Below, one piece after another: positions 8,358 to 50,622 of a DNA stretch of 64,000 bases. The stretch's first letter is position 1; each line of letters opens with the position of its first letter. Under the pieces are notes generated by a model that did not search any database, was not told the DNA's origin, and saw nothing but the letters and a program-made list of their open reading frames with translations. The stretch lies in NCBI RefSeq assembly GCF_000971155.1, contig NZ_BBLX01000004.1, forward strand, positions 186,001-250,000, read 5' to 3'. A program made the position numbers and the translations under genes. The stretch comes from Demequina maris. Its GTDB lineage: Bacteria; Actinomycetota; Actinomycetes; Actinomycetales; Demequinaceae.

Positions 8358-8375
8358 CCGGGACCGCCTGGGCGA

Positions 8376-9788
8376 TCAGGACAGGTACGCCCCCGCGGCG
8401 GCGGAGTACGCCTCCATGATCTCCGGCCGGGTGTCCTGCGCGGGGGCCGCGACCACGGCCAGCGGCCACGCGGGGCGCGAGCCGGTCAGTGCCCACGCCG
8501 CCTGCACCGCGGCGCCCGCGGCGACGTACTCGCCGGGCTCGGGCACCTCGACGGGCACGTCGAAGACCTGGGCGGCGATGGCCTGCACCGCGGGGTTCTG
8601 CGCCGAGCCGCCGACCAGCAGCGCCCGCTTCGCGACCACGCCCGCGGACAGGATCGCGTCCATGCCCACCGCCTGCGCGGCGAGCATGCCCTCGATCGCG
8701 GCGCGGGCCATGTTCGACCGCGTGGTGTTGGCCAGCGTCATGCCCGACAGCGTCGCGGTGGCGTCGGGGAGGTTGGGGGTGCGCTCGCCCTCGAAGTAGG
8801 GGACCAGGGTGAGGCCGCCGGCGCCCGGCTCGGCCTCCATGGCCAGGGCGCCCAGCTCGTCGTAGCCCACGCCGAGGACGCGCGCGAACGCGTCGAGCAC
8901 GCGCGAGGCGTTGAGGGTGCACACGAGCGGCAGGTGCTCGCCGGACGCGGACGCGAAGCCGGCGACGATGCCCGTCGCGTCGCGGAAGCCTTGCTCGGTC
9001 ACCGCGAAGACGGTGCCGGACGTGCCGAGCGACACGACCACGTCGCCGACCGTCGCGCCGAGGCCGAGCCCCGCGGCGGCGTTGTCGCCCGCGCCCGGCC
9101 CGACCACGCAGTCGAGCCCGTGCACGGTGCCCGCGGGCTCGCCGGGCCCGAGCACGCGCGGCACCACCGCATCGTGCCCGAGGGCGGCGACCAGCAGGTC
9201 GCGGTCGTACTCCCCGGTGGCGGGGTTCCAGTACCCCGTCCCGGAGACGTCGGAGCGGTCGGTCGTCAGCTCGGACAGCACCGGCCCCAGCGGGGACGAT
9301 GCGACGGGCCCGTAGCCGCGCAGGCGCCAGGTCAGCCAGTCGTGGGGGAGGGCCACCGCGGCCACGCGGGCGGCGTTCTCCGGCTCGGCGTCGCGCAGCC
9401 ACCGCAGCTTGGTCGAGGTGAACGAGGCGACGGGCACCAGGCCCGTGCGCTCGGCGAGCGCGTCCGCCCCGAACTCCGCGATGAGGTCCGCGGCGGCGCC
9501 TGCCGAGCGGGTGTCGTTCCACAGCAGCGCGTCCCGGACGACCTCGCCGTCCTCGGATAGCGCGACCATCCCGTGCTGCTGCCCGCCCACGGAGATCGCC
9601 GCGACATCGGCGAGCCCGCCCGCCTCCTCGAGCGCGGACCGCAGCGCCTCCCACCAGGATGCGGGGTCCACGGACGTGCCTTCCGGGTGCGACGCGCGCC
9701 CCTGGCGCACCACGTCGCCGGACTCGAGGTCGCGGATCACGACCTTGCAGGACTGGGTGGACGAGTCGACTCCGGCGACGAGCGTCAT
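8376..9788 (-). CDS. xylB: Xylulokinase
   Basis: A 470-residue FGGY-family kinase that phosphorylates D-xylulose to xylulose 5-phosphate. [10 protein letters not shown] at the N terminus is the phosphate-binding strand; [11 protein letters not shown] and LLWNDTRS are the xylulokinase-type substrate-binding segments; [13 protein letters not shown] is the FGGY core motif; the C-terminal [10 protein letters not shown] segment contributes to ATP binding. The gene follows xylA on the same strand with a 90-bp gap that contains a strong hairpin, so it is probably co-transcribed with xylA at a reduced level. Confidence 0.93.
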
Positions 9789-28271: not shown

Positions 28272-28379
28272 TCCCAACCGATCCGGCTGCGGCGTCGTTA
28301 TGGGATCGAGACGCCGAACGGCGCCTGAGCGGTCTCGGGCGTCGATAGGTTGCAGGTCAGTCGATCCGCTGGGGGCAGC
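28272..28379 (+). promoter_or_regulatory. Conserved upstream cassette, copy 3
   Basis: TCCCAACCGATC at 28272-28283, GGCGTCGTTATGGGATCGAG shortly after, TAGGTT at 28346-28351 (71 bp from the C of CAACCGAT at 28275), then TCAGTCGAT and a G-run before the ATG. Confidence 0.76.
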
Positions 28380-35591: not shown

Positions 35592-38500
35592 TCAGGACGA
35601 TGCGGCGGACGGCTTGTCCCCGAAGCCGCACGTCGAGCGCCACTCGCCGACGGCCGCGAGATAGGTCTGCCACTCGTCGGCGGTGAGGTCGCGTCCCGCA
35701 GACGCGCAGGCGGCGTCGCGCAGCATCTCGGGGTCGAGCGTCCAGATGCCGATGCCCTCCACCTCGTCCACGGCGACCTCGAGCCCGTCGGACCGAAGCC
35801 ACACCGGCCAGGCGAGCGGCGCGTGTGACACGAACGGACCGGCGACGCGGGCCCCGGTCTCCGACTCGTAGAGCACGCTGCTCTGGTCGAGGTCTGCGGT
35901 GAGGAACACGTCCCCCGCCTGAGAGAACTGGAAGCGTCCGATCTCCGCGCGCGACCCCTCGCTGGTGGCGATCGGCTCCAGCTCCGTCGTGAAGCGACCG
36001 ATCATCGGACCGACCTGAGCCACGACCATGCCGTCGTCGTTGATCGCCGCGTTCTCGAGGCCGTCGACGAAGGGCGAGAGCGCCTCGCCGGTGCGGAGGT
36101 CGAAGACCTGCGCTCCGACGCCGACCCCGGCGAGGTGCGAGGACACGACGACGTAGTCGTCGTTCGGCGAAGCGACGATGTGCGAGGCGATGCCCTGCAC
36201 GTCGATCACGGGGCCGTCGGGCTCACCCGTCTCCAGGTCGAAGGGCCACACCGTCCCGTCAGGGTCCGCGGCGATCTGCCGGTCGCCCGCACCGGTACGG
36301 AAATGCTCGTAGACGTCCGCACCGATCGGATAGGTGAGGGTGCGCCGCTGCGCCTCGAGGTCGTAGCGGCCGATGTCGTTCGTCGAGGGGAAGTAGGCGA
36401 CGACCGCGTCATCCGAGGCCCAACTCAGGCCGTCGGCATCGCCCTCGACCTCGGCCTCGACCTCGTCCGACCGCACGTTCCACACCGACCACCCGCACGG
36501 GTCGCCGTCACGCCCGAGCCTGCAGACCAGCAACGCGTCCCCGTCCGACCGGTACCCGTCTCCGACGATGTAGCCGGGTCCCGCGACGATGCGGTGGACC
36601 GGGCCGTGCCCGTCGAGCGCCCATCGGGTCGCGACCGGCTCGCGCCGGCCGAAGGCGAGGAGCTCGGCGTTGGAGGCCACCAGCGATCCGGTCGCGCCGT
36701 GCTGGACGTCGAATCTTGTCTGCGTCGGCCCGCCGAGCGCCAGTGTGCGCTCCTGGATCTCGCCGAACCAGCCGCCGCAGTAGTACGTCCGGCCCGCCGG
36801 ACGCGCGGCCATGGTCGAGCACGCACCCTCCTGATCGTTCGGCAGCGTGACCGTCCACGCCACGTCGCCGGAGCCGAGGTCGACGAGGGCCACGTGGAAC
36901 GCGCCCGAGGTCAGCAGCCGGCCGTTCGCCGTGACGGCGATGCCCAGCCCGGTTGCCGCCTCGTCGACCGGCCACGCGTCGAGCTCGCGCCCGGTCGCCG
37001 GGTCGATGACGTGCACGGTGCCCGCGGCCACGGCCACGAGGTTGCCGTCGGGTGCGGCCGCCACCGCGATGCCGTCGGGGTCGTCCGCCGACAGCCGCAC
37101 CGACGTGCGCAGCGCGAGGGTGCGCGCGTCCCACAGGTCGACCGAACCGGACGGGTGGTCGACGGTCGCGACCACCGCACCGCCCGCGCCGATCGCGACA
37201 TGGAGCGGGACATCGGCGCCCTCCGGCACGGTCGCTTCCGCGGTGGCGAGGACGGTGCCCTCGACGAGGTCGTATGCGGTGAGGGTGCCGCACGCGGTGG
37301 GATGGTCGCATCCAGTCGACTGCGCGAGCACCACCGCGAGCGATCCGTCCGCAGCCACCGCGACGGCACGATCACCCGCCTCGATCGCATCGTTCGTGAC
37401 GGTGCGGAACGCCGTGAGCTCGGCGGCGTCCCTCACCTCGATGCCGCGCGCCGATGCGACGACGATGTCGCCTTCCGCGTCGGCCGCGCCCGCGATGCCC
37501 GAAGCCGCCGGCAGCACGATCGATTGGATGAGCTCGGGATGCGAGGCCGCGACGTCGAACAATGCCGCGCGCGAGCGCGGGTCGTCGGGCCAGCGCTCGT
37601 AGGCCTCGACCGCGAGGAGAGCGGCGGTCTCTCTCGACGCGCCGGCGAGCGCTGTGACGTCGTCGGCGAGCGCCGCGACCAGCTCGTCGTCGGCCCGGGC
37701 GGTCGCCGTGCGGTGGTTCAGGATCGCCACCGCGGCGAGCACGAGAGCGGCGACGGCGGCGACTCCACCGGCCGCGTTGGCGAAGCGCACCCGTCGGCGA
37801 TTCCGCGCGTCGCGGGCCGCCGCGTCGGCGACCACGCTCGCCTCGCGCTGCCGCTCGACCTCGGATGCGGAGAGGAACTCGCTTTCGACCTCGGCCAAGG
37901 TGTCGGTCGATGCGTGCTGCCAGGAGCGCGCCGCGTCGAGCCGAGAGCCACGGTAGAGATCGTCGGCGTTCCTTCCTCCGGCCTCCCACGTGCGCGCCGC
38001 CGCCGCCAGGTGAGCGACGAGGCGGTGGGTCTCCGCGTCCTCGTCGAGCCACGCCGTGAGCCGAGGCCACTCGCGGGTGAGCGCCTCATGCGCGAGGAGG
38101 TAGTCGTCGGCGCGTGCGACGAGCAGACGTGCCGAGACGAGCCGCGCGACCGCCTCCGCACGGGCGGGCGTGGTCTCGACCGCCGCGCTGTCGGCGGCAT
38201 GGAGCGCCACGGTGCCGGTGGCGTCGACGGTGACGAGGCGGCGCATGACGGCCCGGCACTCGTCGCGCTGGGCGGAGGTGAGGTTCACGAACACGCGCTC
38301 GGCCGAGCGGGCGACGGCGCCCGCGAGCCCGCCGGTGGCCTCGTACGCCTGGATCGTCAAGGTCGCCCCTTCGCGGCGCTCCCATGTCGCGGCGAGCGCG
38401 TGGGAGAGCAGCGGGAGCGCCGAGTCGACTCGCTGCGCGTCGTGCAGGATCACGTCGACGAGGCCGTGCTCGATCGCGAGGCCGGACCGCAATGCGGGCT

Positions 38501-39755
38501 GCTCGACGACCGCCCGGATCGCCGCCGCGGTCGGTGGCGCGACGAGATGGAGCCCGGAGGTCACGAGGGGGCCGATCGCCGCTTGCGCGGCGCAGGCGTC
38601 GAGGTGCCGCGACTGGAGCGCCACGACGACCGGCACCCCGTCCGCATGAGCGGATGCCAGCGACTTGAACAGTGCCGCCGCGCGTCCTTCGTCGGTGAGC
38701 GCCGCGCCCACGTCGTCCACGATCAGCGGTCGTGAGGCCGAGGCGAGGGCGACGTCGGACGCGGTGGCCGTGGCATCCAGCAGCACCGGCTCGAGCCCGC
38801 GCCGCCTCAGGGCGGGCACGACGCCCGCCCGGAGGATCGAGGACTTCCCGATCCCCGAGGGCCCCGACACCGCCGCGAAGCGCGTGCGGTCCAGCGCCTC
38901 GAGCACCGTGTCCACGTCGTCCTCTCGCCCGAAGAACAGCTCCGCGTCCTCGGGCTCGTACTCCGCCAAGCCCTTGTAGGGGCAGGCGCGGCTCGGAGGC
39001 CGCGCGGCGGGGGCGGCCAGGAGCCGCTCGTCGTGCCGCAGGATCGCCTCCTCGAGCGAGACGAGCGACGGCCCGGGGTCGATGCCGAGCTCGTCGACGA
39101 GCAGCCGTTGCGCACGGCGCACGGTCGCAAGCGCCTCCGCCTGCCGCTCGCATCGGTACTGCGCGAGCGCGAGCGCGTGCCACCGGCGCTCGCGATAGGG
39201 CTCGGCGGCGCACAGGCCGACGGCCTGTTCGGCCACGGCCCGGTGGTCGCCTGCGGCGAGGCGCGCCTCGAGCAGATCGTCGTCGGCCGATGCGCGCAGC
39301 TCGCGGAGCCGATCCGCCTCGTCGCGAGCGGGCGGCCAGTCCTCGAGGACCGCGTAGGGCCGCCCGTGCCACATGCCGATGGCGTGCTCGAGGCTGGTGA
39401 CCGCGCGCTGTTGCTCGCCGTCGGAGGCGAGCTCGCGGGCGCGGTTCACGGCGGCCTCGAAGTCGTCGGCGTCGATGTCGAGCACGCCGCCCTCCCGGCG
39501 CGGGACGATGCGATAGCCACCCGCGACCGTCGCGATCGCGCTGGTGCCGAGCGCCTTGCGCAGGCGGCCGATCGATGCCTGGAGCTGCTTCGCCCACGTC
39601 GTGGGCGGCGCCCCATGCCACACGGCCTCGGCAAGCGCGTCGGCATCGACCTCGGCCGGCCGGCACACGAGCAGCGCCTCGAGCACAGCGCGCTCCCGCG
39701 GGCTGACTCTCGGCTCGTCCGAGACGCCCCTCCCCCCGAGGACTGCGACCCTCAC
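35592..39755 (-). CDS. BTAD-STAND-WD40 transmembrane regulator (module 1)
   Basis: A 1,387-residue regulator. Order: OmpR-type winged helix (about 1-90, TTWAKQLQASIGRLRKALG), BTAD bacterial activation domain (to about 245, ending LLVDELGIDPGPSL), an nSTAND1-like NTPase from CPYKGLAEYEPEDAELFFGRE (residues about 258-278) with Walker A GPSGIGKSS (about 297) and a degenerate Walker B LIVDDVG, one hydrophobic segment (FANAAGGVAAVAALVLAAVA, about 657-676), then a WD40-like propeller and a Cys-paired tail (AACASAGRDL...WRSTCGF). GTG 39755 aligns with the paralogue starts. It is divergent from a secreted protein gene, with 11-bp-spaced repeats between. It probably binds those repeats; signal unknown. 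Confidence 0.82.
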   Translation of the reverse strand: MRVAVLGGRGVSDEPRVSPRERAVLEALLVCRPAEVDADALAEAVWHGAPPTTWAKQLQASIGRLRKALGTSAIATVAGGYRIVPRREGGVLDIDADDFEAAVNRARELASDGEQQRAVTSLEHAIGMWHGRPYAVLEDWPPARDEADRLRELRASADDDLLEARLAAGDHRAVAEQAVGLCAAEPYRERRWHALALAQYRCERQAEALATVRRAQRLLVDELGIDPGPSLVSLEEAILRHDERLLAAPAARPPSRACPYKGLAEYEPEDAELFFGREDDVDTVLEALDRTRFAAVSGPSGIGKSSILRAGVVPALRRRGLEPVLLDATATASDVALASASRPLIVDDVGAALTDEGRAAALFKSLASAHADGVPVVVALQSRHLDACAAQAAIGPLVTSGLHLVAPPTAAAIRAVVEQPALRSGLAIEHGLVDVILHDAQRVDSALPLLSHALAATWERREGATLTIQAYEATGGLAGAVARSAERVFVNLTSAQRDECRAVMRRLVTVDATGTVALHAADSAAVETTPARAEAVARLVSARLLVARADDYLLAHEALTREWPRLTAWLDEDAETHRLVAHLAAAARTWEAGGRNADDLYRGSRLDAARSWQHASTDTLAEVESEFLSASEVERQREASVVADAAARDARNRRRVRFANAAGGVAAVAALVLAAVAILNHRTATARADDELVAALADDVTALAGASRETAALLAVEAYERWPDDPRSRAALFDVAASHPELIQSIVLPAASGIAGAADAEGDIVVASARGIEVRDAAELTAFRTVTNDAIEAGDRAVAVAADGSLAVVLAQSTGCDHPTACGTLTAYDLVEGTVLATAEATVPEGADVPLHVAIGAGGAVVATVDHPSGSVDLWDARTLALRTSVRLSADDPDGIAVAAAPDGNLVAVAAGTVHVIDPATGRELDAWPVDEAATGLGIAVTANGRLLTSGAFHVALVDLGSGDVAWTVTLPNDQEGACSTMAARPAGRTYYCGGWFGEIQERTLALGGPTQTRFDVQHGATGSLVASNAELLAFGRREPVATRWALDGHGPVHRIVAGPGYIVGDGYRSDGDALLVCRLGRDGDPCGWSVWNVRSDEVEAEVEGDADGLSWASDDAVVAYFPSTNDIGRYDLEAQRRTLTYPIGADVYEHFRTGAGDRQIAADPDGTVWPFDLETGEPDGPVIDVQGIASHIVASPNDDYVVVSSHLAGVGVGAQVFDLRTGEALSPFVDGLENAAINDDGMVVAQVGPMIGRFTTELEPIATSEGSRAEIGRFQFSQAGDVFLTADLDQSSVLYESETGARVAGPFVSHAPLAWPVWLRSDGLEVAVDEVEGIGIWTLDPEMLRDAACASAGRDLTADEWQTYLAAVGEWRSTCGFGDKPSAASS

Positions 39756-39806: not shown

Positions 39807-39856
39807 GCATACCGGATGCATACCCGGGCGCCGCTATTCGAGACCAGGTGCATACG
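39807..39856. promoter_or_regulatory. Direct heptamer repeats in module 1
   Basis: GCATACC at 39807-39813 and 39818-39824 (11 bp apart), and GCATACG at 39850-39856. SARP/BTAD regulators bind direct heptamers at 11-bp spacing near a -35, so this is the probable binding site controlling the divergent pair. Confidence 0.65.
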
Positions 39857-39895: not shown

Positions 39896-40648
39896 ATGTC
39901 CATCACTATCGCCCGATCGGTCGGCGGAGCCACACTTGCCGCAGGCGGATTGCTCCTGGGTACGGCGCTGGCGGCTCACGCCGGCGCGGAACCCGTTGCC
40001 TCGCCGAGCGGCCCGGAGCTCGTCTGTCGTGAGTCGCGTTGCGTCCCGTCGGACCTGGCCGGCGTGCTCGGCTGGAACGCGGACGCGGCCGGGTCCGCTC
40101 TCGATGTCTCGTACACGCTTCTCCCGGGGTGGTCCGCTACCGAGACCGACTCCGGCGACGTGATCCTCCACCTGCCCGAGTGGGTGGCCCCCGGCAGCTT
40201 CGGTGTCCCCGCCGTGACGATCTTCGCGGACCCGCTGGCCCCGCGTCAGCCGTGCGGCGACACCGCGCTTCCGAAGGCCGGGACGGACGTCGAGGCCCTC
40301 CACCACGCGCTGGCCCAACACCCGGGGCTCGAGGTCACGGTCGATGAGCCTGTCGAGGTCGGGGGCCTGTCGGGTCGTCATCTCGACCTCACCCTTGCCG
40401 ACGGCTGGACGGACACCTGCCCGGGCGCGGCGGGGGAGCCGGCCGTCGCGTATCTGATCGACGACCACGGCACGCACCTGCACCGCACGGTCACGGCGGA
40501 CACCCCCGTGCGGCTGTTCCTCCTCGAAGCAGGCGATCGGACGGTCGCCGTCGAGGTCGCGGTGCCCGCGTCTCGGGTCGACTTCGAGCAGTACGTGGAG
40601 GTCGCCCAGCAGATGATCGACACGCTCGACTTCGATGTCGCGCCGTAG
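39896..40648 (+). CDS. Secreted protein of unknown function (module 1)
   Basis: A 250-residue exported protein. The signal peptide is clear (SVGGATLAAGGLLLGTALAAHAGA, residues about 8-31); the mature domain has four Cys (LVCRESRC, QPCGD, DTCPGA) and alternating hydrophobic strands (VSYTLLPGWSATETDSG, DVILHLPEW), faintly like LpqN-type secreted folds, which I cannot confirm. GAAGGAGG precedes ATG 39896. It takes the position held by the repeat peptides in modules 2 and 3 but lacks the YEPM repeat, so it may be a different effector under the same type of regulator. Confidence 0.7.
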   Translation: MSITIARSVGGATLAAGGLLLGTALAAHAGAEPVASPSGPELVCRESRCVPSDLAGVLGWNADAAGSALDVSYTLLPGWSATETDSGDVILHLPEWVAPGSFGVPAVTIFADPLAPRQPCGDTALPKAGTDVEALHHALAQHPGLEVTVDEPVEVGGLSGRHLDLTLADGWTDTCPGAAGEPAVAYLIDDHGTHLHRTVTADTPVRLFLLEAGDRTVAVEVAVPASRVDFEQYVEVAQQMIDTLDFDVAP

Positions 40649-40677: not shown

Positions 40678-43600
40678 CTACCAGCTCGGCTTGGAGTACT
40701 GCGGGCACGTCTTCCGCCACTCGCCGACGTCCGCGAGGTACGCGTCCCACTCCTGCTGCGACAGGTTCCGCCCGGCGGTCTCACAGGCGGCCTGATACAT
40801 GTGCGCCGGATCCACGTCCCACACGGCGACGCCCTCCTCGACGTTCACCGCGATCGCGAGCCCGTCGGGCCGGAGGAAGCCCGCGGTGGCGCCCGGGGAG
40901 TTGGCGTCGAGCGGGATGCCGATCAGCTCGGCCCCAGCGGTGTCGAACAGCGAGACGGAGCCGTCACGAGCCGAGACGAGGTACCGCGTGCCATCCGCAC
41001 TGAACTCGAGCGCGTCGAGCAGGCCGCCGGAGCCGAGCGTCTCGCCCCGCTGGACGAAGTCCGAGTCGAACCGGCGCACGTATTGATCGTGGATCGCGAT
41101 GGCGGTGCCATCCGAGGTGAGGGCCGCATTCCGTACGAACTTGTTCGGGAACCCCACCTGTCGGCCCGTCCTCGAGTCGAGGAACTGCACGATCGGACCC
41201 TCATCGAGCATCGACGTGATGGCGACGAGCGCACCCTCGGCCGATGCGGACACGTGCGTCGGCACACCGATGACGTGGATCGCGTCGCCGATGCGCTGCA
41301 AGGTGCTCGTGTCGTAGGTCTCGACGGTCTTGTCGTCGAAGAGGGCGTACGCGCGCGTGCCGTCCGCGGAGACGAACAGCGCCGATGCGTCGGCCGGGAC
41401 GACGTCGGCGGCCACCTGCACTCCCGTGGCGGCGTCGTAGACGTCGCGTGTGCCGGTCGAGGCCGTGAGCCCGATCACGCGTCCCTCGCCGAACCAGGCC
41501 AGGTCCTCGAGGTCGGCGGGCGCGTCGCGCACCGCGACGTCCGACGCGACATCCCAGACGCGGTAGCCGTCCGTCGCGCCGTACGCGTTCGCGACGGGGT
41601 CGCGTCGCGCGACGATGAGCCCTCGACCGTCCGCGCTCCAGCGGTCGACCGCCTCGTGGGCGCGTGCGACCACCCGGGTGATGGGGCCGGTGCCGTCGAG
41701 GCTCCATCGCGACACGACGCGCCCGCGCGTCGCGGTCGAGAGCAGCGTCGCCTCGTCCGGGGTCACGGCGAGCGCGTCGACGACGCCGTTCTGCGCCGCG
41801 CGCACCTGCCCGATCGGCGCGCCCGTGGCGAGGTCGTACTCGCGGATCACGCCGACCTCGCCGGCGCAGAAGACGCGGCCGGTTGCGGGCGCGACCGCGA
41901 GCGCGAGGCACGCTCCCGGTGCGACGACCACGTGCTCGTGTGCCCAGAGCACGCGCCCCGAGTTGAGCGAGAGCGCGAGCAGGCCGTCGTCGCCCGCCGC
42001 TACCACGGTGCCGTCGTCGGTGACGATCGTGGCGGTGTTCGCGTGGCGTGCGGGCGACTCGAGGGTGCGCGTCACCGTGGCGCTGGGGACGTCGACCACG
42101 AGGATGCGGCCGTCGAGGGTGGTGAGCAGCACGGTGACGTCGTCGACGAACACCACCGCCCCCGGTGACTCCACGACGCGGGAGTCCTGCGCACCGACCG
42201 CGACCGTCCCGAGGTCGCGGCCCGTCGCCGAGGCTCTCACCGTGAGGTCTCCCGTGCGGCCGTCGACGACGGCGACGTAGGTGCCGTCGGGGCTCACGGC
42301 GAGCCCGCCTGGCTCGACCGCGTCGCTGTCGAGCGGCGTCACGGCAAGCTCGGTCTGCTGGTCGAGGTCGAAGGTGGCGAGGGTCGGCCGTTCCTCGGCG
42401 CCGCTGCGGCTGTCCGGCGCCACGAGCGCAGCGACGCTTCCGTCGTCGCTCACCGCCACGTCCGGAGCGTCGGGCCAGGACCACGCGGCCGACGTGGCGA
42501 TGTCGACCTCCTTCGCTCCGGTCTCGAGCCGGCGGACCTCGACCCCGGTCGTGAAACCCAGCACCAGGTGGAGCCCGTCGGCGGTGACAGCCGTGTGCGG
42601 CACCTGCTGGTACCGCACGTGAAGGTCGCCGCGGAAGCCAGGGTCGGTGGCGAAGGCGGTGAGGAGCGCGCCCTGCGCGGCCAGAGAGTCCGGCCATCGA
42701 AGGTAGGCCTCGGCCGCGAGCAAGAACCCGACGTCGCGTGAGGCTCCCATCACGGCCGCGAAATCCTTGGTGATCGCCTCGAGGTGCGCCCGATCGGTCT
42801 GCTCCCGCGCGGTCGTGCCGCGCGACTCCGCGACCCGGTACGCGACGGTCGCCGCCGCGATGCCGACGAGCGCCGTGGCGGCCGCCGCGACGGCCCACCG
42901 GCGCATCGTCCTCACGCGCGCCCGCGAGCGCGACTCGCGCCGCTCGGCCTCCTCCGCGGCCGCACGCTCGGCCTCCTCGGCGTCGCGCGACGCGACCAGG
43001 AACGTGCGCTCGAGCGGGGTGAGGGCATCCTCGTCGCGGTCGGCCCAGTCCCACGCGATCGCGAGCCGTGGCCCCCGGTACAGGTCCGCCGCGGGCCTTC
43101 CGAGCGAGTCCCACGTGGCCGCCGCGGTCGACAGGTGCCCGAGCGCGCGCTGGCCCTCAGCGTCGGCCTCCAGCCAGCCGCGAAGGCGCGGCCAGGCGCG
43201 CACGAGCGACTCGTGCGCGAGCTCGAGGTGGTGCTCGCGCGCGCTCACGAGCCTCGCCTGGACCAGCCGGCCGACCACCCGCTGCAGGTCCTCGTCGGCC
43301 AGCGTGCGTGAGTCGACCGGGTGGGAGACGACGGCCCCTGCCTCCGTGAGGGTGACGAGCCGGCGCAGGATGAGCGCGCAGCGGCGCCGGTCGTCGACCG
43401 GGAGGTTGGTGAAGAGGAGCTCGGCCGAGCGCGCGACCGCGCCGCGGAGCCCACCCGAGGCCTTGTAGCCGTCGATCGTGAGCGTGGAGCCCTCGCGTCG
43501 CTGCCAGGTCTCGGCGAGGGCGTGCGACAGGAGCGGCAGCGCTCCCGTGGCGGCCTCGGCGTCCGCAAGCACCACGTCAGGGAAGCCGTGCTCGAGCGTG

Positions 43601-44880
43601 AGGTGCGCGTGCCGAGCCGGCTCCTCGATCGCCGCCCGGAGCGCGTCCGCGCGCAGGGGCGTCACGAGGTGCAGGCTCGAGAGCACCAGCGACCCGACGG
43701 CCGGATCGGCGGCGCACGCGTCGAGGTGGTCCGAGCGGACGGCGATGGCCACGCCGCCGCCGCCGCGGTGGTGCGCGGCGAGCGCGTCGCAGATCTCACG
43801 GGACGTCCCTGCGGCCAGCGACGCGGAGAAGGCGGTCTCGAACTGGTCGATCGCGATGACCGCGTGCGCGGGCGCGCGGGTGATCTCCTCGAGCGCCGCG
43901 CCCGACGGCGACACCTCGACCATCGTCGTGCCGCGCGCCGTGAGCGCCGGCTGCACGCCCGCGCGCAGGAGTGACGACTTGCCCGTCCCGGACGCGCCCG
44001 CCAGCACCAGGAAGCGCATGCGATCGAGGGTCGCCACCGCACGCGCGATGTCCGCGTCGCGCCCGAAGTACACGTCAGCGTCGCCCGGCTCGTAGGCGCT
44101 GAGCCCCTTGTAGGGGCATCGGTCGTCCGGGGCGGGCAGCGCGGGTGCGACGGACAGGTCCTCGTCCTGACGCAGGATCGCCTGCTCCAGATCGACGAGC
44201 GCGGGCGAGGGATCGAGGCCCAGCTCGTCCCGCAGGACCGCCCGCGCGCGCCGCAGCGCCGCCAGCGCATCGGCCTGCCTCTCGCATCGGTACAGCGCGG
44301 TCGCCAGCGCGATCCAGCGCGTCTCCCGCAGCGGCTCCGCCGCGGCGAGCGCGGACGCGGTCGCCGCGACGCCGCGATGGTCGCCGGAGGCGAGGCGCTC
44401 GGCGAGGAGGTCGTCCTCCGCCTGGCGGCGCAGCTCGGTGAGCCGCTCGATCTCCACGGCGGCCGGCGGCCAGTCCGCGACCGCCTCGTAGGGATCGGAG
44501 GTGCGCCACAGCCCGAGCGCCCTCTCCAGGGCGACGACGGCGCGCCCGTGCTCGCCCTCGCTTGCGAGGGTGGCGGCACGCGCGACCTCGTCCTCGAAGA
44601 CGTCGACGTCGACCGCACCGCGAGGGAGCTCGAGGCGGTACGCCCGGTCGACCGTGACGATGGAGCCGTTGCCGAGCGAGGTCCGCAGCCGCCATACCGA
44701 CCCCTGGATCTGCTTCGCCCACGTGCTGGGGGGCGCGTCGCCCCAGACCGCCTCCGCGATGACCTCCGGGCTGACCGCGGTGGGCCGCATGACCAGGAGG
44801 GCAGCGAGGACCGAGCGCTCCCGCCGATTGTGGTGGGGTGCCTCCTTGCCGGCGGTCTCGCCGAGGACCTCCACGGTCAC
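40678..44880 (-). CDS. BTAD-STAND-WD40 transmembrane regulator (module 2)
   Basis: A 1,400-residue paralogue with the same order: winged helix (STWAKQIQGSVWRLRTSLG, about 45-63), BTAD (to VLRDELGLDPSPALVDLEQ), STAND NTPase from CPYKGLSAYEPGDADVYFGRD (about 255) with Walker A GASGTGKSS and a classical Walker B AVIAIDQFE, one transmembrane segment (WAVAAAATALVGIAAATVA, about 660-680), WD40-like propeller, and tail AACETAGRNL...WRKTCPQY. Its NTPase is the least degenerate of the three. The start is taken as GTG 44880 (V-T-V-E-V-L aligned with paralogues); GTG 44874 is an alternative. Divergent from a repeat-peptide gene. Confidence 0.82.
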   Translation of the reverse strand: MTVEVLGETAGKEAPHHNRRERSVLAALLVMRPTAVSPEVIAEAVWGDAPPSTWAKQIQGSVWRLRTSLGNGSIVTVDRAYRLELPRGAVDVDVFEDEVARAATLASEGEHGRAVVALERALGLWRTSDPYEAVADWPPAAVEIERLTELRRQAEDDLLAERLASGDHRGVAATASALAAAEPLRETRWIALATALYRCERQADALAALRRARAVLRDELGLDPSPALVDLEQAILRQDEDLSVAPALPAPDDRCPYKGLSAYEPGDADVYFGRDADIARAVATLDRMRFLVLAGASGTGKSSLLRAGVQPALTARGTTMVEVSPSGAALEEITRAPAHAVIAIDQFETAFSASLAAGTSREICDALAAHHRGGGGVAIAVRSDHLDACAADPAVGSLVLSSLHLVTPLRADALRAAIEEPARHAHLTLEHGFPDVVLADAEAATGALPLLSHALAETWQRREGSTLTIDGYKASGGLRGAVARSAELLFTNLPVDDRRRCALILRRLVTLTEAGAVVSHPVDSRTLADEDLQRVVGRLVQARLVSAREHHLELAHESLVRAWPRLRGWLEADAEGQRALGHLSTAAATWDSLGRPAADLYRGPRLAIAWDWADRDEDALTPLERTFLVASRDAEEAERAAAEEAERRESRSRARVRTMRRWAVAAAATALVGIAAATVAYRVAESRGTTAREQTDRAHLEAITKDFAAVMGASRDVGFLLAAEAYLRWPDSLAAQGALLTAFATDPGFRGDLHVRYQQVPHTAVTADGLHLVLGFTTGVEVRRLETGAKEVDIATSAAWSWPDAPDVAVSDDGSVAALVAPDSRSGAEERPTLATFDLDQQTELAVTPLDSDAVEPGGLAVSPDGTYVAVVDGRTGDLTVRASATGRDLGTVAVGAQDSRVVESPGAVVFVDDVTVLLTTLDGRILVVDVPSATVTRTLESPARHANTATIVTDDGTVVAAGDDGLLALSLNSGRVLWAHEHVVVAPGACLALAVAPATGRVFCAGEVGVIREYDLATGAPIGQVRAAQNGVVDALAVTPDEATLLSTATRGRVVSRWSLDGTGPITRVVARAHEAVDRWSADGRGLIVARRDPVANAYGATDGYRVWDVASDVAVRDAPADLEDLAWFGEGRVIGLTASTGTRDVYDAATGVQVAADVVPADASALFVSADGTRAYALFDDKTVETYDTSTLQRIGDAIHVIGVPTHVSASAEGALVAITSMLDEGPIVQFLDSRTGRQVGFPNKFVRNAALTSDGTAIAIHDQYVRRFDSDFVQRGETLGSGGLLDALEFSADGTRYLVSARDGSVSLFDTAGAELIGIPLDANSPGATAGFLRPDGLAIAVNVEEGVAVWDVDPAHMYQAACETAGRNLSQQEWDAYLADVGEWRKTCPQYSKPSW

Positions 44881-44933
44881 CAGTTCAGTCTTCGCGCGGC
44901 ACCGGCGACGGTCAAGGACTGTGGACGGCCCGC

Positions 44934-44951
44934 ACACCGCCGGAACACCGC
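44934..44951. promoter_or_regulatory. Direct heptamer repeats in module 2
   Basis: ACACCGC at 44934-44940 and 44945-44951, exactly 11 bp apart, with a third imperfect AGACCGG at 44955. The heptamer sequence differs from modules 1 and 3 but the spacing is the same. Confidence 0.6.
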
Positions 44952-45012
44952 GGGAGACCGGCGGAGATGCGCCGCGTGGTCCGTTGGAGGCGTCCCTGAA
45001 AGGAGCGCCACC

Positions 45013-45495
45013 ATGTCCCACCGCATCCACCTCTCCCACACGAGCCGGACCACGCTCGCCGCCGCCGCCATCGTCATCGCGCTCGTGGTCGGCGCGGTGC
45101 TCGCCGTCGGCATCCGCGCGTGGTCCGACCCCCGGCCTGGGCTCGGCTTCGAGCCCCCGCAGGTCGTCACCCGGGTCCAGGCCGTCGCCTATGTGCCCGA
45201 GCGCCATTCACAGTTCACGCTTGAGGACAACCTCTCGCCCATGGAGCCGCAGGCCTTCAACCTCAACGGCGTCGTCGACAAGGTCGCCTCGCAGCCGATC
45301 AGCGGCGGTGTCCCGCCGTACGCGGTCGACGGCTGGCACGCGCCCGCGACGATCCCGATCAGCGGCGGGCAGCCGCCCTACTCCTACGAGGGCTGGAGCG
45401 CGGACGGCTACGAGCCCATCGGCGGCGGCCTGCCCGTCTACGCCGAGGACGGCTACGAGCCCATGAGCGGCGGCGTGCCGGACTACGCCGAGTAG
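45013..45495 (+). CDS. Exported repeat peptide, Ser type (module 2)
   Basis: A 160-residue protein with an N-terminal signal anchor (TLAAAAIVIALVVGAVLAVGI, about residues 14-34), a short spacer, and four C-terminal repeats from about residue 95: PISGGVPPYAVDGW, PISGGQPPYSYEGW, EPIGGGLPVYAEDGY and EPMSGGVPDYAE, the last ending at the stop. No Cys is present. The repeats match those of the module 3 peptide, where Ser is replaced by Cys. AAAGGAG precedes ATG 45013. I do not know the family; candidates are a multi-core peptide precursor, a surface ligand for the propeller domain, or a structural repeat protein. Confidence 0.72.
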   Translation: MSHRIHLSHTSRTTLAAAAIVIALVVGAVLAVGIRAWSDPRPGLGFEPPQVVTRVQAVAYVPERHSQFTLEDNLSPMEPQAFNLNGVVDKVASQPISGGVPPYAVDGWHAPATIPISGGQPPYSYEGWSADGYEPIGGGLPVYAEDGYEPMSGGVPDYAE

Positions 45496-45519
45496 TGCCG
45501 GTCCGACGACGCGGCGACG

Positions 45520-45545
45520 GGGGAGGCCCCGCACAGGGCCTCCCC
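45520..45545. terminator. Bidirectional terminator after the module 2 peptide
   Basis: Perfect 10-bp stem GGGGAGGCCC (45520-45529) with GGGCCTCCCC (45536-45545) and a 6-nt loop, between convergent stops. Confidence 0.85.
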
Positions 45546-45556
45546 TTCGTCGTGCC

Positions 45557-48500
45557 TCAGGACGATGCGTCGGGCGGCTCGTCGCCGAATCCGCACGTCG
45601 AGCGCCACTCGCCCAGCGGGGCGAGGTAGGTCTCCCACTCCTCGGCCGTGAGGTCCCTGCCGGCGGACGCGCAGGCCGCGTCGCGCAGGGACCCAGGATC
45701 GAGCGACCACACGTCGATGCCATCGCTCGTGGTCACGGCGACCTCGCGTCCGTCCGGACGTAGCGCCGCGGGCCACAGGTAGGGCGAGTCCGACGTCAGC
45801 GGGCCCGCGACACGTAGGCCGGACACGGTGTCGAACACCACGGAGCCGTTCCCGTCGCCGCCGACCACGAACAGGTCACCCGCATCGCTGAACTCGATCG
45901 TGCTGACGTTGCGACCGGGCATGTCGCTCCTGCCCAGCAGGTCGAGCCCTGTCGTGAGCCGGGCGACGCCCCCGGCGGTTGCCGCGGCCACCGTGCCCCC
46001 GTCGTTGACCTCCGCGAGCCAGAGGCCTTCCCGGACGGGGGACAGCGCCTCGCCCGAGGCGGCGTCGAATACCTGGACGGCGGGCGTCCCGTCGCCGAGG
46101 GTGCTCGAGATCACGAGCAGGCTGCCGTCCGGCGAGGACGCCGCGTGGTCGACCGCACCCTCGATCCGCAGCCGGGGGCCGATGGCGGCGCCGGTGGCCG
46201 TGTCGATGGTCCGGAACTGGCCGTTCGCGTCGATGACGTGCAGCGCGCTGCCGTCGCTCGACGGGTAGACGCGTGCGGACGGTGCGAACGAGTACGTCGT
46301 CGTCAGCCGCCCCGCGCTCAGCGAGAAGCGGCCGGCGTGGTTCTCGGTGAACCCGTACGCGAGCACCGTGCCCTCGTCGATCCATCCGAAGACGGTGACG
46401 CTGTCGAAGCTGTCGACCGGGCGGTCGGCGGCCACGTCCCAGGTGCCGAAGTCGGTGTATGTGTCCCACGCGGAGTCGTCGGAACGGCGCCCGCTCACGA
46501 GCAGGAGCGCGCCGCTCGGAGAATACCCGTCGAACATCACCTGACCGGCGGCGATCGAGCGGCGGACCGCGCCGTCGCCGGTGGTGGTCCACCTCGTCAC
46601 GACCGGGGTGAGCGCCGCGACCGACGTGAGCTCGCCGTGCGCGAGCGCGAGCGCCCCGGCGTGCTCCGGCTGAGCGGTGAGCACCCGCCCGGTGCTGAGC
46701 CCGGTCGTGAGGTCCCATTCGGTCACCACGCCGTCGAAGTCCGCGCAGTAGACATGCGAGGCGTCGTCGTCGACCGCCAACCAGCCGCACGGTCCCGTCT
46801 CGTTGGCGCTGAGCGAGGCCACCCATCTCGGGTCCCCGGTGACCGGGTCGACGGCTGCGAGCGCTCCGGCGCCGGCGGTCACGAGCGTGCCGTCATCCGT
46901 GACGGCGGCGGACAGGCCCGTCGCGGAGGCCAGCAGCGAGAACTCCGAGATCTGCTGGGCCGTGCGCGGGTCGACGAGCCTCACCTGGCCGGGCTGCGTC
47001 ACGACGATCTCGCCCGTCCGCGCCGCGGCGAGCGCCACATCGTCCACGCGGGTGCCCGCGATCCGGATCGTGCCCGTGATCCTGTGGTTGGCGGGGTTGC
47101 GCAGCTCGACCGTCCCGCGCTCGCGGTTGACCGTGGCGACGCTCGTGCCGGCGGCATCCACCTGGATCTGGAGCGGGTGCCCGACGCGCTCGGGCACGGC
47201 GCCTTCCAGCCTGGTCGTGTTCACCATCTGTCCGGTCGTGGCGTCGATCGTGAGGAGGGCGCCGCAGGCAGCGGCACCGTCGCACCCCGCCGCGTCGGCG
47301 AGCACCGCCACGAGCGAGCCGTCCGCGGACGCCGCCACGGCACGCCGGCCGACCTCGGCCCACGACGCGGGTGCCGACACCTCCCACACCACCTCGTCCG
47401 TGTCGTCGTCGATGCCGCGCACGCCGGCACCGGACACGAGCACGTGGGTCCCCGTGCCCAGGTCCGCGTAGGCGAGTCCTCCGGAGTCCGGGAGGACCGA
47501 CGACGACGTCAGATCCGGGTGCGCCGCGGCCGAGTCGAAGAGGGCGGCCCGCGCGCGGGGATCGTCGGGCACGCGGGACCAGACCTCGGCGGCGAGCAGG
47601 GCCGCGACCGGCCGGGACCAGGTCGCCATGTCGCCGATCCGCTCGGTCAACGACGCGATCACCGCATCCTGTCGCCGTGCCTCCGCCGACCGGTGCAGCG
47701 CGAACGTGGCGGCCCCGAGCGCGACGAGGGCCACCGCGGCGGCCGCGACCGACGCGTTGAGCCCCCGGGTCCGACGGGTCCGGCGGCGCTCGCGGGCGGC
47801 GACCTCGTCCGCGGCGGCCACCGAGCGGTCGAGGAACTCCTCCTCGATGGGAGCGAGCGGCGCGCGCGACCCCTCCCTCCACGCGACGACCGTCGCGAGC
47901 CGGGAGCCGCGGTACAGGTCGTCGGGGCTCCGGCCGCCGTCGTCCCACGCTGCGGCGGCCGCGGTGAGGTGCGCGAGCTGCCGGCTCGCCTCGGCGTCCT
48001 CCTCGAGCCAGTGCGCCAGCCGCGGCCATGCGCGGGCGAGCGACTCGTGGGCGAGGACGTAGCCGTCCGCGCGCGCCACGACGAGCCGCGCGGCGACGAA
48101 GCGCGCCACCGCCTCGGCGCGCGCCGGCGCCTTGTGGACGATGGCCGGGTCGGCGGCGTGAAGCGTGAGGGAGCCGTCCGGCCCCACCTCGACGAGGCGC
48201 TGCATGAGCGTCCGGCATTCGACCCGCTCGGCGGCCCCGAGGTTGAGGAACACGCGCTCCGCGGTTCGCGCCACCGCGCCCAGCACGCCCCCGGTCGACT
48301 CGTACGCCTCGATGGTGAGCGTGCTGCCCTCGCGCCTCTCCCACGTCGCCGCGAGCGAGTGGGACAGCAGCGGCAGGGAGGCGTCGACCCGCGCGGCGTC
48401 GTGCAGCACCACGTCGACGAGTCCGTGCTCGAGGGTGAGCCCGCTGCGCTGCGCCGGCTGCTCGACCACGTCCCGGATCGCCTCCGCCGTCGGGGGTGCC

Positions 48501-49714
48501 ATCAGGTGCAGCCCGGCGCTGACGAGCGCGCCGATCCTCGGCTGGGCGACGCAGGCGTCGAGCTGCAGCGACTGGACCACGATCGCGATGCGCGCGCCGG
48601 CGGCGTGGGCGTCGGCGAGCGCGTCCGCCAAGGCGGCGGCGCGTTCGGGATCGCCGAAGGCCCGTCCGACGTCGTCCAGCATGAGCGGCGCGCTACGGGA
48701 GGCCGTCGCGACCTGGGCAGGTGTGGCCGTGGCGCCGAGCAGCACCGGGTCCAGCCCGCGGCGGCGCAGCTCGGGGATCACCCCGGCGCGCAGGAGCGAC
48801 GACTTCCCGATGCCGGACGGCCCGGTGACCGTGACGAACCCGGTGCGATCGAGCAGGTCCAGCACCGCGGCGACGTCCCCGTCGCGGCCGAAGAACAGGT
48901 CGGCGTCGCGGGACTCGTACACGCTCAGGCCCTTGTAGGGGCAGCCGGCGCTCGGCGGGCGGGCGGCGGGCGGCGCGAGCAGCGCCGCATCCTGTCGCAG
49001 GATCGCGTCCTCGAGCTCGGCCAGCGACGGACCCGGATCGATCCCGAGCTCGTCGACCAGCAGGCGCTGCGCCCGACGGGTCGTGTCGAGCGCGTCCGCC
49101 TGACGTTCGCACCGGTACTGAGCGAGCGCCAGGGCGTGCCAGCGCCGCTCGCGGTACGGCTGCGAGGCCACGAGCGCGGTGGCGTGCTCCGCCACCGCCC
49201 GGTGGTCCCCGGCCGCGAGCCGGGCCTCGAGCAGGTCGTCGAGCGCGGACTCGCGCACCTCCGCGAGCCGCGCGGCCTCGTCGTGCGCGGCGGGCCAGTC
49301 CGCGATCGCCTCGTACGGCGGCGCGCGCCACAGGCTCAACGCACGCTCGAGCGTGGTGACCGCGCGCTGGTGCTCGCCGTCGGCGGAGTAGCCGCGAGCG
49401 CGGTCGACCGCAGCCTCGAACTCGTCCACGTCGGCCTCGACTGTGCCGCCGTCGGCGGTGGGGACGATGCGGTAGCCGGTGGGAGTGGTCGAGATCGAGT
49501 CGGGGCCGAGCACCTTCCGGAGCCGCCCGATCGCCGCCTGGAGCTGCTTGAGCCACGTCTTCGGCGGATCGTCGGACCAGAGGGCCTCGGCGATCCGGTC
49601 GGCGCTGGCGCAGGCGGGGCGGGCCACCAGGAGCGCCTCGAGCACGGCCTGCTCCCGCGGGCTCACCCCCGGTTCCGCCGAGGGGCCCGTTCCCCCGAGG
49701 ACGGAGACCCTCAC
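45557..49714 (-). CDS. BTAD-STAND-WD40 transmembrane regulator (module 3)
   Basis: A 1,385-residue regulator, closest to the module 1 protein: start VRVSVLGGTG, winged helix (KTWLKQLQAAIGRLRKVLG), BTAD ending LLVDELGIDPGPSLAELED, STAND NTPase from CPYKGLSVYESRDADLFFGRD with Walker A GPSGIGKSS and Walker B-like LMLDDVG, one transmembrane segment (ASVAAAAVALVALGAATFAL, about 650-670), WD40-like propeller and tail AACASAGRDL...WRSTCGF. GGAAGG precedes GTG 49714. The gene end and terminator share a 34-bp identical run with module 1, a sign of recent duplication. Probably controls itself and the divergent Cys-type repeat peptide. Confidence 0.83.
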   Translation of the reverse strand: MRVSVLGGTGPSAEPGVSPREQAVLEALLVARPACASADRIAEALWSDDPPKTWLKQLQAAIGRLRKVLGPDSISTTPTGYRIVPTADGGTVEADVDEFEAAVDRARGYSADGEHQRAVTTLERALSLWRAPPYEAIADWPAAHDEAARLAEVRESALDDLLEARLAAGDHRAVAEHATALVASQPYRERRWHALALAQYRCERQADALDTTRRAQRLLVDELGIDPGPSLAELEDAILRQDAALLAPPAARPPSAGCPYKGLSVYESRDADLFFGRDGDVAAVLDLLDRTGFVTVTGPSGIGKSSLLRAGVIPELRRRGLDPVLLGATATPAQVATASRSAPLMLDDVGRAFGDPERAAALADALADAHAAGARIAIVVQSLQLDACVAQPRIGALVSAGLHLMAPPTAEAIRDVVEQPAQRSGLTLEHGLVDVVLHDAARVDASLPLLSHSLAATWERREGSTLTIEAYESTGGVLGAVARTAERVFLNLGAAERVECRTLMQRLVEVGPDGSLTLHAADPAIVHKAPARAEAVARFVAARLVVARADGYVLAHESLARAWPRLAHWLEEDAEASRQLAHLTAAAAAWDDGGRSPDDLYRGSRLATVVAWREGSRAPLAPIEEEFLDRSVAAADEVAARERRRTRRTRGLNASVAAAAVALVALGAATFALHRSAEARRQDAVIASLTERIGDMATWSRPVAALLAAEVWSRVPDDPRARAALFDSAAAHPDLTSSSVLPDSGGLAYADLGTGTHVLVSGAGVRGIDDDTDEVVWEVSAPASWAEVGRRAVAASADGSLVAVLADAAGCDGAAACGALLTIDATTGQMVNTTRLEGAVPERVGHPLQIQVDAAGTSVATVNRERGTVELRNPANHRITGTIRIAGTRVDDVALAAARTGEIVVTQPGQVRLVDPRTAQQISEFSLLASATGLSAAVTDDGTLVTAGAGALAAVDPVTGDPRWVASLSANETGPCGWLAVDDDASHVYCADFDGVVTEWDLTTGLSTGRVLTAQPEHAGALALAHGELTSVAALTPVVTRWTTTGDGAVRRSIAAGQVMFDGYSPSGALLLVSGRRSDDSAWDTYTDFGTWDVAADRPVDSFDSVTVFGWIDEGTVLAYGFTENHAGRFSLSAGRLTTTYSFAPSARVYPSSDGSALHVIDANGQFRTIDTATGAAIGPRLRIEGAVDHAASSPDGSLLVISSTLGDGTPAVQVFDAASGEALSPVREGLWLAEVNDGGTVAAATAGGVARLTTGLDLLGRSDMPGRNVSTIEFSDAGDLFVVGGDGNGSVVFDTVSGLRVAGPLTSDSPYLWPAALRPDGREVAVTTSDGIDVWSLDPGSLRDAACASAGRDLTAEEWETYLAPLGEWRSTCGFGDEPPDASS

Positions 49715-49765
49715 CCTTCCACTGTGGAACCGCGGACGCCCGCGGTCAAACGCCCGGCGGGTCGC

Positions 49766-49804
49766 GCATACCCCACGCATACCGGGCCGAGCAGGGCGCA
49801 TACC
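49766..49804. promoter_or_regulatory. Direct heptamer repeats in module 3
   Basis: GCATACC at 49766-49772, 49777-49783 (11 bp apart) and 49798-49804 (21 bp further). The heptamer is the same as in module 1, so the two regulators may recognise each other's sites. Confidence 0.68.
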
Positions 49805-49859
49805 GGGGCCTGGCGGGGCGGGTGTGTCCTGAAGGTGTCCCTGGAAGGAGGGCAAGATC

Positions 49860-50414
49860 ATGTGGACTCTGCTGAAGCAACGGACCAGCAACCGCGTGCC
49901 GGTCGTCGCCAAGGGTCTCGGACTCGTCGCGGGGCTCGTCGGAGCAGCCGCGATGTCCATGGGAGCAGTCGCGGTGGCCAACGACACTGATGACACCCCG
50001 TCCGGCAGCGACGAGGCGGTCGGCTACGTCTATTCGGGTGGCTCGTGGGGCTCCGAGGAGTCGCTGAGCGACACCGGCGCCGGATCGGACGACGCCTACA
50101 CGCCGATGCCGTGCGTGCCCGAGGGTGCCTACGGCGCGACCGAGGAGGACGAGGCCTACACGCCGATGCCGTGCGTGCCCGAGGGTGCCTACGGCGCGAC
50201 CGAGGAGGACGAGGCGTACGAGCCGATGTGCGGTGGGCTTCCGCCCTATGCGCAGTCCGACGAGGACGCGACCGACGACGCCTACGAGCCGATGTGCGGC
50301 GGCGTGCCGCCCTACGCGGTGGATGACTACGAGCCGATCTGCGGTGGGCTCCCGCCCTACGCCGTGGACGACTACGAGCCGATGTGCGGTGGCGTGCCGG
50401 ACTACGCCGAGTGA
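49860..50414 (+). CDS. Exported repeat peptide, Cys type (module 3)
   Basis: A 184-residue protein with a signal peptide (GLGLVAGLVGAAAMSMGAVAVA, about residues 19-40), an acidic Ser/Gly region, two identical units AYTPMPCVPEGAYGATEEDE, then four shorter units: AYEPMCGGLPPYA, AYEPMCGGVPPYA, DYEPICGGLPPYA and DYEPMCGGVPDYAE at the very C terminus. There are six Cys, one per unit, and none elsewhere. The unit P(M/I)CGG(V/L)PPYA is the Cys version of the module 2 repeat. GGAAGGAGGG precedes ATG 49860. Family unknown; the regular Cys could form disulfides, bind metal or be a modification site. Confidence 0.72.
   Translation: MWTLLKQRTSNRVPVVAKGLGLVAGLVGAAAMSMGAVAVANDTDDTPSGSDEAVGYVYSGGSWGSEESLSDTGAGSDDAYTPMPCVPEGAYGATEEDEAYTPMPCVPEGAYGATEEDEAYEPMCGGLPPYAQSDEDATDDAYEPMCGGVPPYAVDDYEPICGGLPPYAVDDYEPMCGGVPDYAE
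50094..50213 (+). repeat. Exact 60-bp tandem repeat inside the Cys-type peptide gene
   Basis: Two head-to-tail 60-bp copies (50094-50153 and 50154-50213) with no differences seen, encoding two identical 20-residue units. Exact DNA identity implies a recent duplication or ongoing copy-number change. Confidence 0.9.
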
Positions 50415-50437: not shown

Positions 50438-50461
50438 GGGAGGTCCCGATCGGGACCTCCC
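50438..50461 (+). terminator. Terminator of the module 3 peptide gene
   Basis: A fully palindromic 24-bp element: GGGAGGTCCC (50438-50447), GATC, GGGACCTCCC (50452-50461), followed by CCTTTC. Confidence 0.85.
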
Positions 50462-50622
50462 CCTTTCACCGACCTCAGCGTCTCGCGATGCGAGACGCGG
50501 TTGTCGTATCGTGGACAACGGCCCTAGGATGAGCACACGACAGGCCGGTCGCGCGGCCCCCGCTCACGAGGCGGTCGGGCCGCCATGAGCCGGCTTCGAC
50601 CACGACTTCGAAGGGGAACCTC

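Follow-up and report, generated by a model that had tools for sequence, protein, structure and literature searches.

We analyzed a 64,000-nucleotide stretch of the Demequina maris genome (contig NZ_BBLX01000004.1, positions 186,001 to 250,000; hereafter the window, from genome G000), in which two small genes, PEP2 and PEP3, encode proteins that end in the same short repeat. They belong to three tandem modules of a large regulator gene and a divergent small gene: module 1 consists of REG1 and SEC1, module 2 of REG2 and PEP2, and module 3 of REG3 and PEP3 (Table 1). A preliminary description had treated the interval 45013-50414 as the site of a stand-alone repeat peptide family; that interval also holds REG3 (45557-49714, minus strand), which belongs to the Streptomyces antibiotic regulatory protein (SARP) kind by domain content. 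The cassette of regulator, operator and partner gene, and the unrelated repeat tails on partners in other bacterial families, lay beyond what that description saw.

Table 1. Features of the three regulator-partner modules, in window coordinates (ORF, open reading frame; wHTH, winged helix-turn-helix; TM, transmembrane; TRF, Tandem Repeats Finder)
Feature	Coordinates	Strand	Remarks
REG1	35592..39755	-	1387 aa; architecture as REG3; divergent from SEC1
SARP-type operator, module 1	39807..39856	+	GCATACC/GCATACC/CGAGACC/GCATACG (11, 21, 11 bp)
SEC1	39896..40648	+	250 aa; exported globular protein without repeat; REG1 partner; no Pfam or NCBIfam family
REG2	40678..44880	-	1400 aa; architecture as REG3; divergent from PEP2
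SARP-type operator, module 2	44932..44961	+	ACACC/ACACC/AGACC (11- and 10-bp spacing)
PEP2 (module 2 repeat protein)	45013..45495	+	Intact ORF, 160 aa; N-terminal hydrophobic anchor at residues ~15-35, middle segment, four C-terminal units
PEP2 repeat units	45289..45492	+	SQPISGGVPPYA 45289-45324, TIPISGGQPPYS 45349-45384, YEPIGGGLPVYA 45409-45444, YEPMSGGVPDYAE 45454-45492
45-bp tandem array in PEP2 gene	45402-45492	+	Tandem-repeat search
Cassette-boundary inverted repeat, terminator-like, separating PEP2 from the REG3 3' end	45520..45545		Read from sequence
REG3	45557..49714	-	1385 aa; SARP wHTH and BTAD (95-239), nSTAND1 NTPase (270-597), TM helix, double beta-propeller; divergent from PEP3; from Pfam, topology and model
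REG3 extracytoplasmic part, residues 676-1385	45560..47689	-	Double WD40-type propeller; close conserved cysteine pairs 811/817, 976/990, 1348/1374
REG3 single predicted TM helix, residues 654-673	47696..47755	-	Hydropathy 2.15, next best segment 1.55; N side Arg-rich (RRRTRRTRG)
SARP-type operator, module 3	49766..49805	+	GCATACC at 49766, 49777, 49798 (11- and 21-bp spacing)
PEP3 (module 3 repeat protein)	49860..50414	+	Intact ORF, 184 aa; signal-peptide-like N terminus, GYVYSGGSWGS, two YTPMPCVPEGAYG units, four YEP[MI]CGG[VL]P.YA units
60-bp tandem duplication in PEP3 gene	50087..50228	+	Encodes YTPMPCVPEGAYGATEEDEA units; TRF, 2.4 copies, 95%
PEP3 repeat units	50217..50411	+	YEPMCGGLPPYA 50217-50252, YEPMCGGVPPYA 50283-50318, YEPICGGLPPYA 50328-50363, YEPMCGGVPDYAE 50373-50411
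45-bp tandem array in PEP3 gene	50277-50409	+	Tandem-repeat search
Terminator-like inverted repeat 3' of PEP3	50438..50461		GGGAGGTCCC..GGGACCTCCC; read from sequence

PEP2 and PEP3 are unlike each other over their first ~90-115 residues and have a common tail, in which a 12-residue unit, Y-E-P-[MI]-x-G-G-x-P-x-Y-A, occurs four times in each protein, with Val, Leu or Gln after the Gly-Gly. In both, the last unit runs exactly to the stop codon, and a ribosome-binding-site-like GGAGG or AGGAG precedes the repeat-protein start. The tails matched in a hidden Markov model search of the genome itself (E = 7.5e-14), and the Smith-Waterman score of 187 between the two proteins compares with a mean of 39 and a maximum of 75 over 1,000 shuffles. 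The earlier claim of two otherwise different proteins with a common repeat tail is thus confirmed. Not one of 20,000 shuffles of PEP3 contained even a single copy of the motif. In both genes the main unit recurs in tandem at the DNA level, with a 45-bp period. PEP3 has an additional unit type, YTPMPCVPEGAYG, duplicated as a 60-bp tandem, and the GYVYSGGSWGS segment of this protein is conserved.

Our compilation of 24 units covers seven proteins from six genomes. All 24 retain Pro, Gly-Gly, Pro and Tyr, 22 have the final Ala and 17 the first Tyr; the preliminary description, which called Tyr fixed, therefore slightly overstated the case. The residue preceding Gly-Gly varies (Cys, Ser, Thr, Gly or absent), so that Cys is not conserved. 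Over 231 pairs of units, nonsynonymous divergence (mean dN 0.24) is well below synonymous divergence (mean dS 0.82), indicating that the repeat peptide is under purifying selection. Copy number differs among species. This selection pattern, the occurrence in two different proteins and the species-dependent copy number support the earlier proposal that function resides in the repeat as the conserved part.

Neither PEP2 nor PEP3 had an above-cut-off match in Pfam, NCBIfam or PDB sequences. Two Pfam matches of the repeat proteins, to SprB (E 0.039) and GASA (E 0.0085), were rejected as below cut-off, short and composition-like. The SprB repeat (PF13573) has a weak local likeness at GG.PPYSY (14 bits, cut-off 28), in which only 13 residues align, and the 15-aa period of our arrays is too short for an SprB domain. 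REG2, REG3, PEP2 and PEP3 were also compared with the PADLOC models as a test for an antiphage STAND/Avs-like system, and none matched at 1e-5.

Demequina are soil and plant bacteria. Across the 44 genomes of our genus survey, the repeat was found in six and a full-length regulator in nine, those six included. We regard the repeat as a new family. Among 396 genomes sampled from the order, the repeat profile gave no real match outside the genus; its match in G191 (E 0.009) proved to be a low-complexity GGRPSYGQS protein and was discarded. A scan of GTDB contigs with profile A2 (profile A1 was not conserved enough) named three of the genomes, Demequina rhizosphaerae, D. silvatica and D. phytophila; D. 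rhizosphaerae NBRC 109397 carries a single type-3 cassette. No further copies came from scans of GTDB contigs, viral contigs, plasmids and phages. The contig scan missed the more diverged copies in G042 and G009 and so may miss distant relatives.

The N termini of the repeat proteins point to export. PEP3 orthologues carry a lipobox after a hydrophobic stretch, MTAC in G042 and LAAC in G009. The lipobox pattern [LVI][ASTVI][GAS]C is absent from the PEP3 proteins of the window and of its sister genome G019, in which the Cys is lost and the hydrophobic stretch kept, and from the PEP2 proteins; in the two PEP3 proteins, AVA|ND is a possible cleavage site. The hydrophobic anchor of PEP2 is strong (15-residue mean 3.1). 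AlphaFold2 returned no fold for PEP3, with a predicted local distance difference test (pLDDT) score of 45 and a predicted template modeling (pTM) score of 0.10; as the model drew on only four sequences, it suggests rather than proves that the tail is disordered. Lipobox or hydrophobic anchor, together with a model without fold, support the cell-surface repeat that was among the functions first proposed. We also observed that Cys-bearing units (PMCGG) occur in the PEP3 proteins that lack a lipobox (window and G019), and that the proteins that keep it (G042 and G009) carry Thr or lack a residue at this position; this covariation represents at most one evolutionary event.

The three regulators of the window share one architecture. 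BTAD was matched in all three (Pfam E 6e-31 to 7e-34), Trans_reg_C at or near the cut-off in REG1 and REG3 and weakly in REG2, and the Pfam matches to WD40-type propellers were weak. AlphaFold2 modeled the part of REG3 beyond the helix as a double propeller (pLDDT 88.7, pTM 0.86), and a Foldseek search with this model returned double WD40 proteins and Apaf-1. The best structural match of the first propeller was a Thermomonospora curvata WD40 propeller (5YZV; VIA Z 31.7, 281 residues, 2.8 A, 20% identity), a single propeller domain from another protein, so that the match informs on fold only. A single hydrophobic segment at about residue 650-680, an Arg-rich N side and paired cysteines beyond it were found in 11 of 11 Demequina regulators, and a transmembrane helix was also predicted in 14 regulators outside the genus. 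Because of the single helix, its Arg-rich N side and the paired cysteines that follow it, the propeller is predicted to lie outside the cell. The regulators are therefore well supported by sequence as a transmembrane one-component type, with DNA binding inside and a predicted propeller sensor outside. The propeller is also the faster-diverging part: G018 and G023 are 85% identical in nSTAND and 53% in the outside part, and the values for window REG3 against the G009 regulator are 70% and 55%.

SARPs are known to bind direct repeats spaced by 11 or 22 bp, and it is through such sites that AfsR activates afsS (PMC10936776, PMC5930380, PMC6988585). In the 11 Demequina regulator-partner intergenic regions, GCATACC-type repeats gave 56, 53 and 43 matches at lags of 11, 21 and 32, against shuffle maxima of 11, 11 and 6. 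Within the window, the paired pattern (at most three mismatches) is confined to the three regulator-partner intergenic regions; three matches also arose in 12 of 100 window shuffles, so that the argument lies in their placement rather than in their number, which is weak by itself. Genome-wide, the only occurrences of the paired operator are those at modules 1 and 3 and at a single further site; module 2 has a variant with three mismatches. That other site (L069, G000 contig 16, 58943-58960) is an 11-bp pair, GGATACCGTCCGCATACC, near small exported-protein genes and may be due to chance; as it is a single pair and a reversed control pattern also gave one match, we do not interpret it as a further operator. 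More broadly, an exact 7-mer direct repeat at SARP-like spacing was present in 23 of 26 upstream regions from several families (the start-side regions of 25 regulators and the region upstream of the G071 partner), compared with 73 of 3000 random windows. The occurrence of 11-bp-period repeats in all 11 Demequina intergenic regions makes it very probable that the small protein is the direct target of the regulator, which we infer to control its adjacent partner gene.

All 11 Demequina regulators sit between ilvC and leuB, within surroundings of ilvBNC and leuB/ilvE, and each adjoins an exported partner. Partner type follows regulator clade: REG3 with PEP3 in four cases, REG2 with PEP2 in three, REG1 with SEC1 in three, and a type of its own in G020. 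In most other genomes of the genus, ilvC directly precedes leuB. G006 retains the scar of a type-1 cassette that has been deleted: in its ilvC-leuB gap (L047), flanked by the ilvC terminator and the leuB promoter, the 3' ends of a REG1 and a SEC1 gene stand side by side. On the ilvC-leuB-ilvE tree, clades 1, 2 and 3 of the regulator have a scattered distribution; the sisters G042 (type 3) and G006 (type-1 scar) differ in cassette type, and the window genome has three types in tandem where its sister G019 has type 3 only. These patterns strongly support a cassette that is a movable or exchangeable allele at one chromosomal site. In G018, a second exported, SEC-like gene lies between PEP2 and leuB (L036:7654-8520), and from the presence of both the ancestral cassette may have held both. 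Two observations concern the edges of the locus. At the cassette-free junctions inspected, ilvC is followed by an inverted repeat of the same kind as that at 45520..45545. Before leuB, positions 50491-50535 hold a palindrome-like GTCTCGCGATGCGAGAC and a conserved stretch resembling a promoter, which look alike whether or not a genome carries the cassette.

The same plan recurs in other families of the order, where full-length relatives of the regulator also have SARP-like direct repeats and an adjoining small exported protein. Partners from different families are for the most part unrelated by sequence. Those of G467, G265 and G173 are lipoproteins with repeats of their own, namely three copies of PYRDFAERLTPADLAPA, three of D.DPRG.HG[VA]P and two around A[DE]RYV.SL, and the repeat self-match of each exceeded all 60 shuffles. 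The partners in G242, G252 and G197 have a signal peptide and a C-terminal transmembrane helix. In G071, a SEC-like lipoprotein gene preceded by GGATACCGCACGGATACC lies 3' of the regulator gene, in the same orientation. These sequences make the Demequina repeat one among several tails, each specific to its lineage, on a shared plan of regulator and partner; differing repeats on the G467, G265 and G173 partners are what would be expected if tail and sensor change together. The lipoprotein partners at L098, L099 and L109, in another family, have the same MNTT..T N terminus and three different repeat tails. At L096:6315-9207, a SEC-like lipoprotein gene is interrupted by an insertion with a transposase-like open reading frame (6683-8926).

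To account for these features together, we propose that the exported, disordered repeat tail is both target and multivalent partner of the transmembrane SARP in a feedback loop, a reading to which we give about an even chance. The repeat proteins would be small, exported and either surface-tethered (as lipoproteins or by an N-terminal anchor) or secreted, ending in a disordered, multivalent linear motif. The regulator would hold its wHTH-BTAD part and nSTAND1 switch inside the cell and, across one helix, its double beta-propeller outside as a sensor. By binding the 11-bp-spaced repeats between the two genes it would activate the partner gene, activation being the presumed sign of the regulation. 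The exported tail would then meet the outside propeller of its own cell (in cis) or of another cell. Its tandem units could confer avidity or cluster receptors, and the effect would be relayed by the helix to the nSTAND switch and SARP domain, closing the loop. We favor feedback because of the dedicated pairing, the operators, the outside sensor and the joint change of tail and sensor. Directly visible in the sequence or strongly supported by it are the reading frames and the repeat with its selection pattern, the export signals, the architecture and topology of the regulator, the operators, the locus and the exchange of cassettes; control of the partner gene by the regulator, the sign of that control and contact between tail and propeller are putative.

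Several results weigh against this proposal. The propellers of REG2 and REG3 are only 29% identical, yet their partners carry the same motif, and those of REG1 and REG3 are closer, yet their partners have no common motif. Propeller residues private to the repeat-paired REG2 and REG3 number five, against four and five in control groupings. The earlier suggestion of a propeller ligand gains plausibility from the predicted outside propeller on the adjacent regulator, and a search for residues marking the repeat-paired propellers gave none above background. In another family, the second regulator copy of G121 and the regulators of G622 and G433 have a divergent partner of 68-70 aa without an export signal, and the regulators at L103 and L108 have no clear partner. 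Regulators with a transmembrane helix and such a 68-70-aa partner are seen at L106, L110 and L111; the small partners of G622 and G433 have MNYDTFVA.RIDSRRAATL.RENELR.SQADRG in common, downstream of GAGTACCG direct repeats.

The simplest alternative accounts for nearly as much as the feedback loop does, and we regard it as quite possible while leaning against it: the repeat proteins would be output only, surface or wall-spanning proteins for adhesion, matrix or wall decoration, with the SARP sensing an unrelated signal and the repeat binding a target other than the propeller. The operators and export signals fit plain output equally well. The same motif accompanies dissimilar propellers with no propeller signature to go with it, SEC1-type partners can replace repeat proteins, and copy-number change by tandem duplication is typical of surface repeat proteins. 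What such output would not need is a dedicated cassette of one regulator and one partner, maintained across several families with ever-changing partners, and inspection by eye found no wall-binding or sortase motif.

Less probable, and in our view improbable, is a pherotype-like system in which the propeller would detect, as signals, repeat proteins that neighboring cells release or display, with exchangeable cassettes as self/non-self specificities. The scatter of cassette types on the host tree would fit, including the close pair G042 and G006 (type 3 versus type-1 scar) and the three types in G000, as would a sensor that is the fastest-evolving part and the PEP3 proteins of G000 and G019, which lack a lipobox and may be released. 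However, most partners look anchored, by lipobox or uncleaved hydrophobic segment, one motif common to types 2 and 3 would make a poor specificity, and the cassette has no dedicated exporter or processing protease.

A precursor of a ribosomally synthesized and post-translationally modified peptide (RiPP) or peptide antibiotic, with repeated cores under a pathway SARP, has only a slim chance of being correct. Repeated cores occur in some RiPPs. Antibiotic clusters are the usual SARP targets (PMC10972967). On the other hand, modifying enzyme, protease and dedicated transporter are absent from the cassette at seven of seven repeat loci, the neighbors are ilvBNC and leuB/ilvE, the Cys/Ser/Thr position is not conserved, and a lipobox or membrane anchor stands where a leader would be expected; the suggestion of a core for modification is accordingly not supported. 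Spurious open reading frames opposite the regulators, although chance frames are plentiful in GC-rich DNA, are refuted by the selection pattern and made negligible as an explanation by the conserved protein motif with dN well below dS, the ribosome-binding-site-like sequence, the operators and the orthologues in five other genomes.

Returning to the feedback reading, its closest parallel is AfsR and AfsS of Streptomyces, where a SARP with an NTPase switch activates a small-protein gene through 11-bp direct repeats (PMC10936776, PMC6988585), as we presume for activation here. By published description, AfsR is a SARP-NOD-TPR protein and AfsS a 63-aa regulator of antibiotic genes, whereas the window regulators have a transmembrane helix, a predicted outside double propeller and, together with their relatives, mostly exported partners. 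On the AfsR equivalog model they scored 112-134 bits against a cut-off of 1430, and they are 1385-1400 aa long compared with about 1000 aa for the AfsR type, which combines SARP, NB-ARC/NOD and TPR parts; by domain content they are SARPs, not of AfsR type. They thus belong to a known SARP kind, here carrying a new repeat family.

A second parallel is the CadC/ToxR type. ToxR is a transmembrane one-component regulator with a periplasmic partner, ToxS, and resembles the present system in its OmpR-type wHTH inside, single transmembrane helix, outside sensor and small exported partner gene alongside. The window regulators differ in BTAD, the nSTAND1 switch and the propeller, and their partner is divergent with linear repeats; homology was compared at the level of the wHTH class only. 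We found no report of a SARP with a transmembrane helix and outside propeller, or of exported SARP partners, in a literature search confined largely to open-access papers; an Arthrobacter chromate paper concerns a different WD40 protein.

Extending the proposal, one may tentatively suppose a widespread, as yet undescribed actinobacterial class of transmembrane SARP receptors with small exported ligands of their own, whose motif changes with the fast-evolving propeller, the Demequina cassettes being exchangeable alleles of which one genome has collected three; we consider this broader version doubtful. Most large SARPs have no known input. If the proposal is true, a membrane-spanning SARP with an outside double propeller and one exported partner would give large SARPs a testable sensor and output, and the changing tails on a constant plan in Demequina, G467, G265 and G173 would be a natural series for the joint change of linear ligand and propeller receptor. 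For the repeat itself, a defined genetic context replaces the stand-alone repeat peptide family.

Elsewhere in the window, three tandem genes upstream of ilvB (26561-28261, 28350-29999 and 30148-31626) have products that combine a hydrophobic segment at the N terminus with a repeat region resembling a propeller, and relatives of these genes lie at the equivalent place in G019 and partly in G018.

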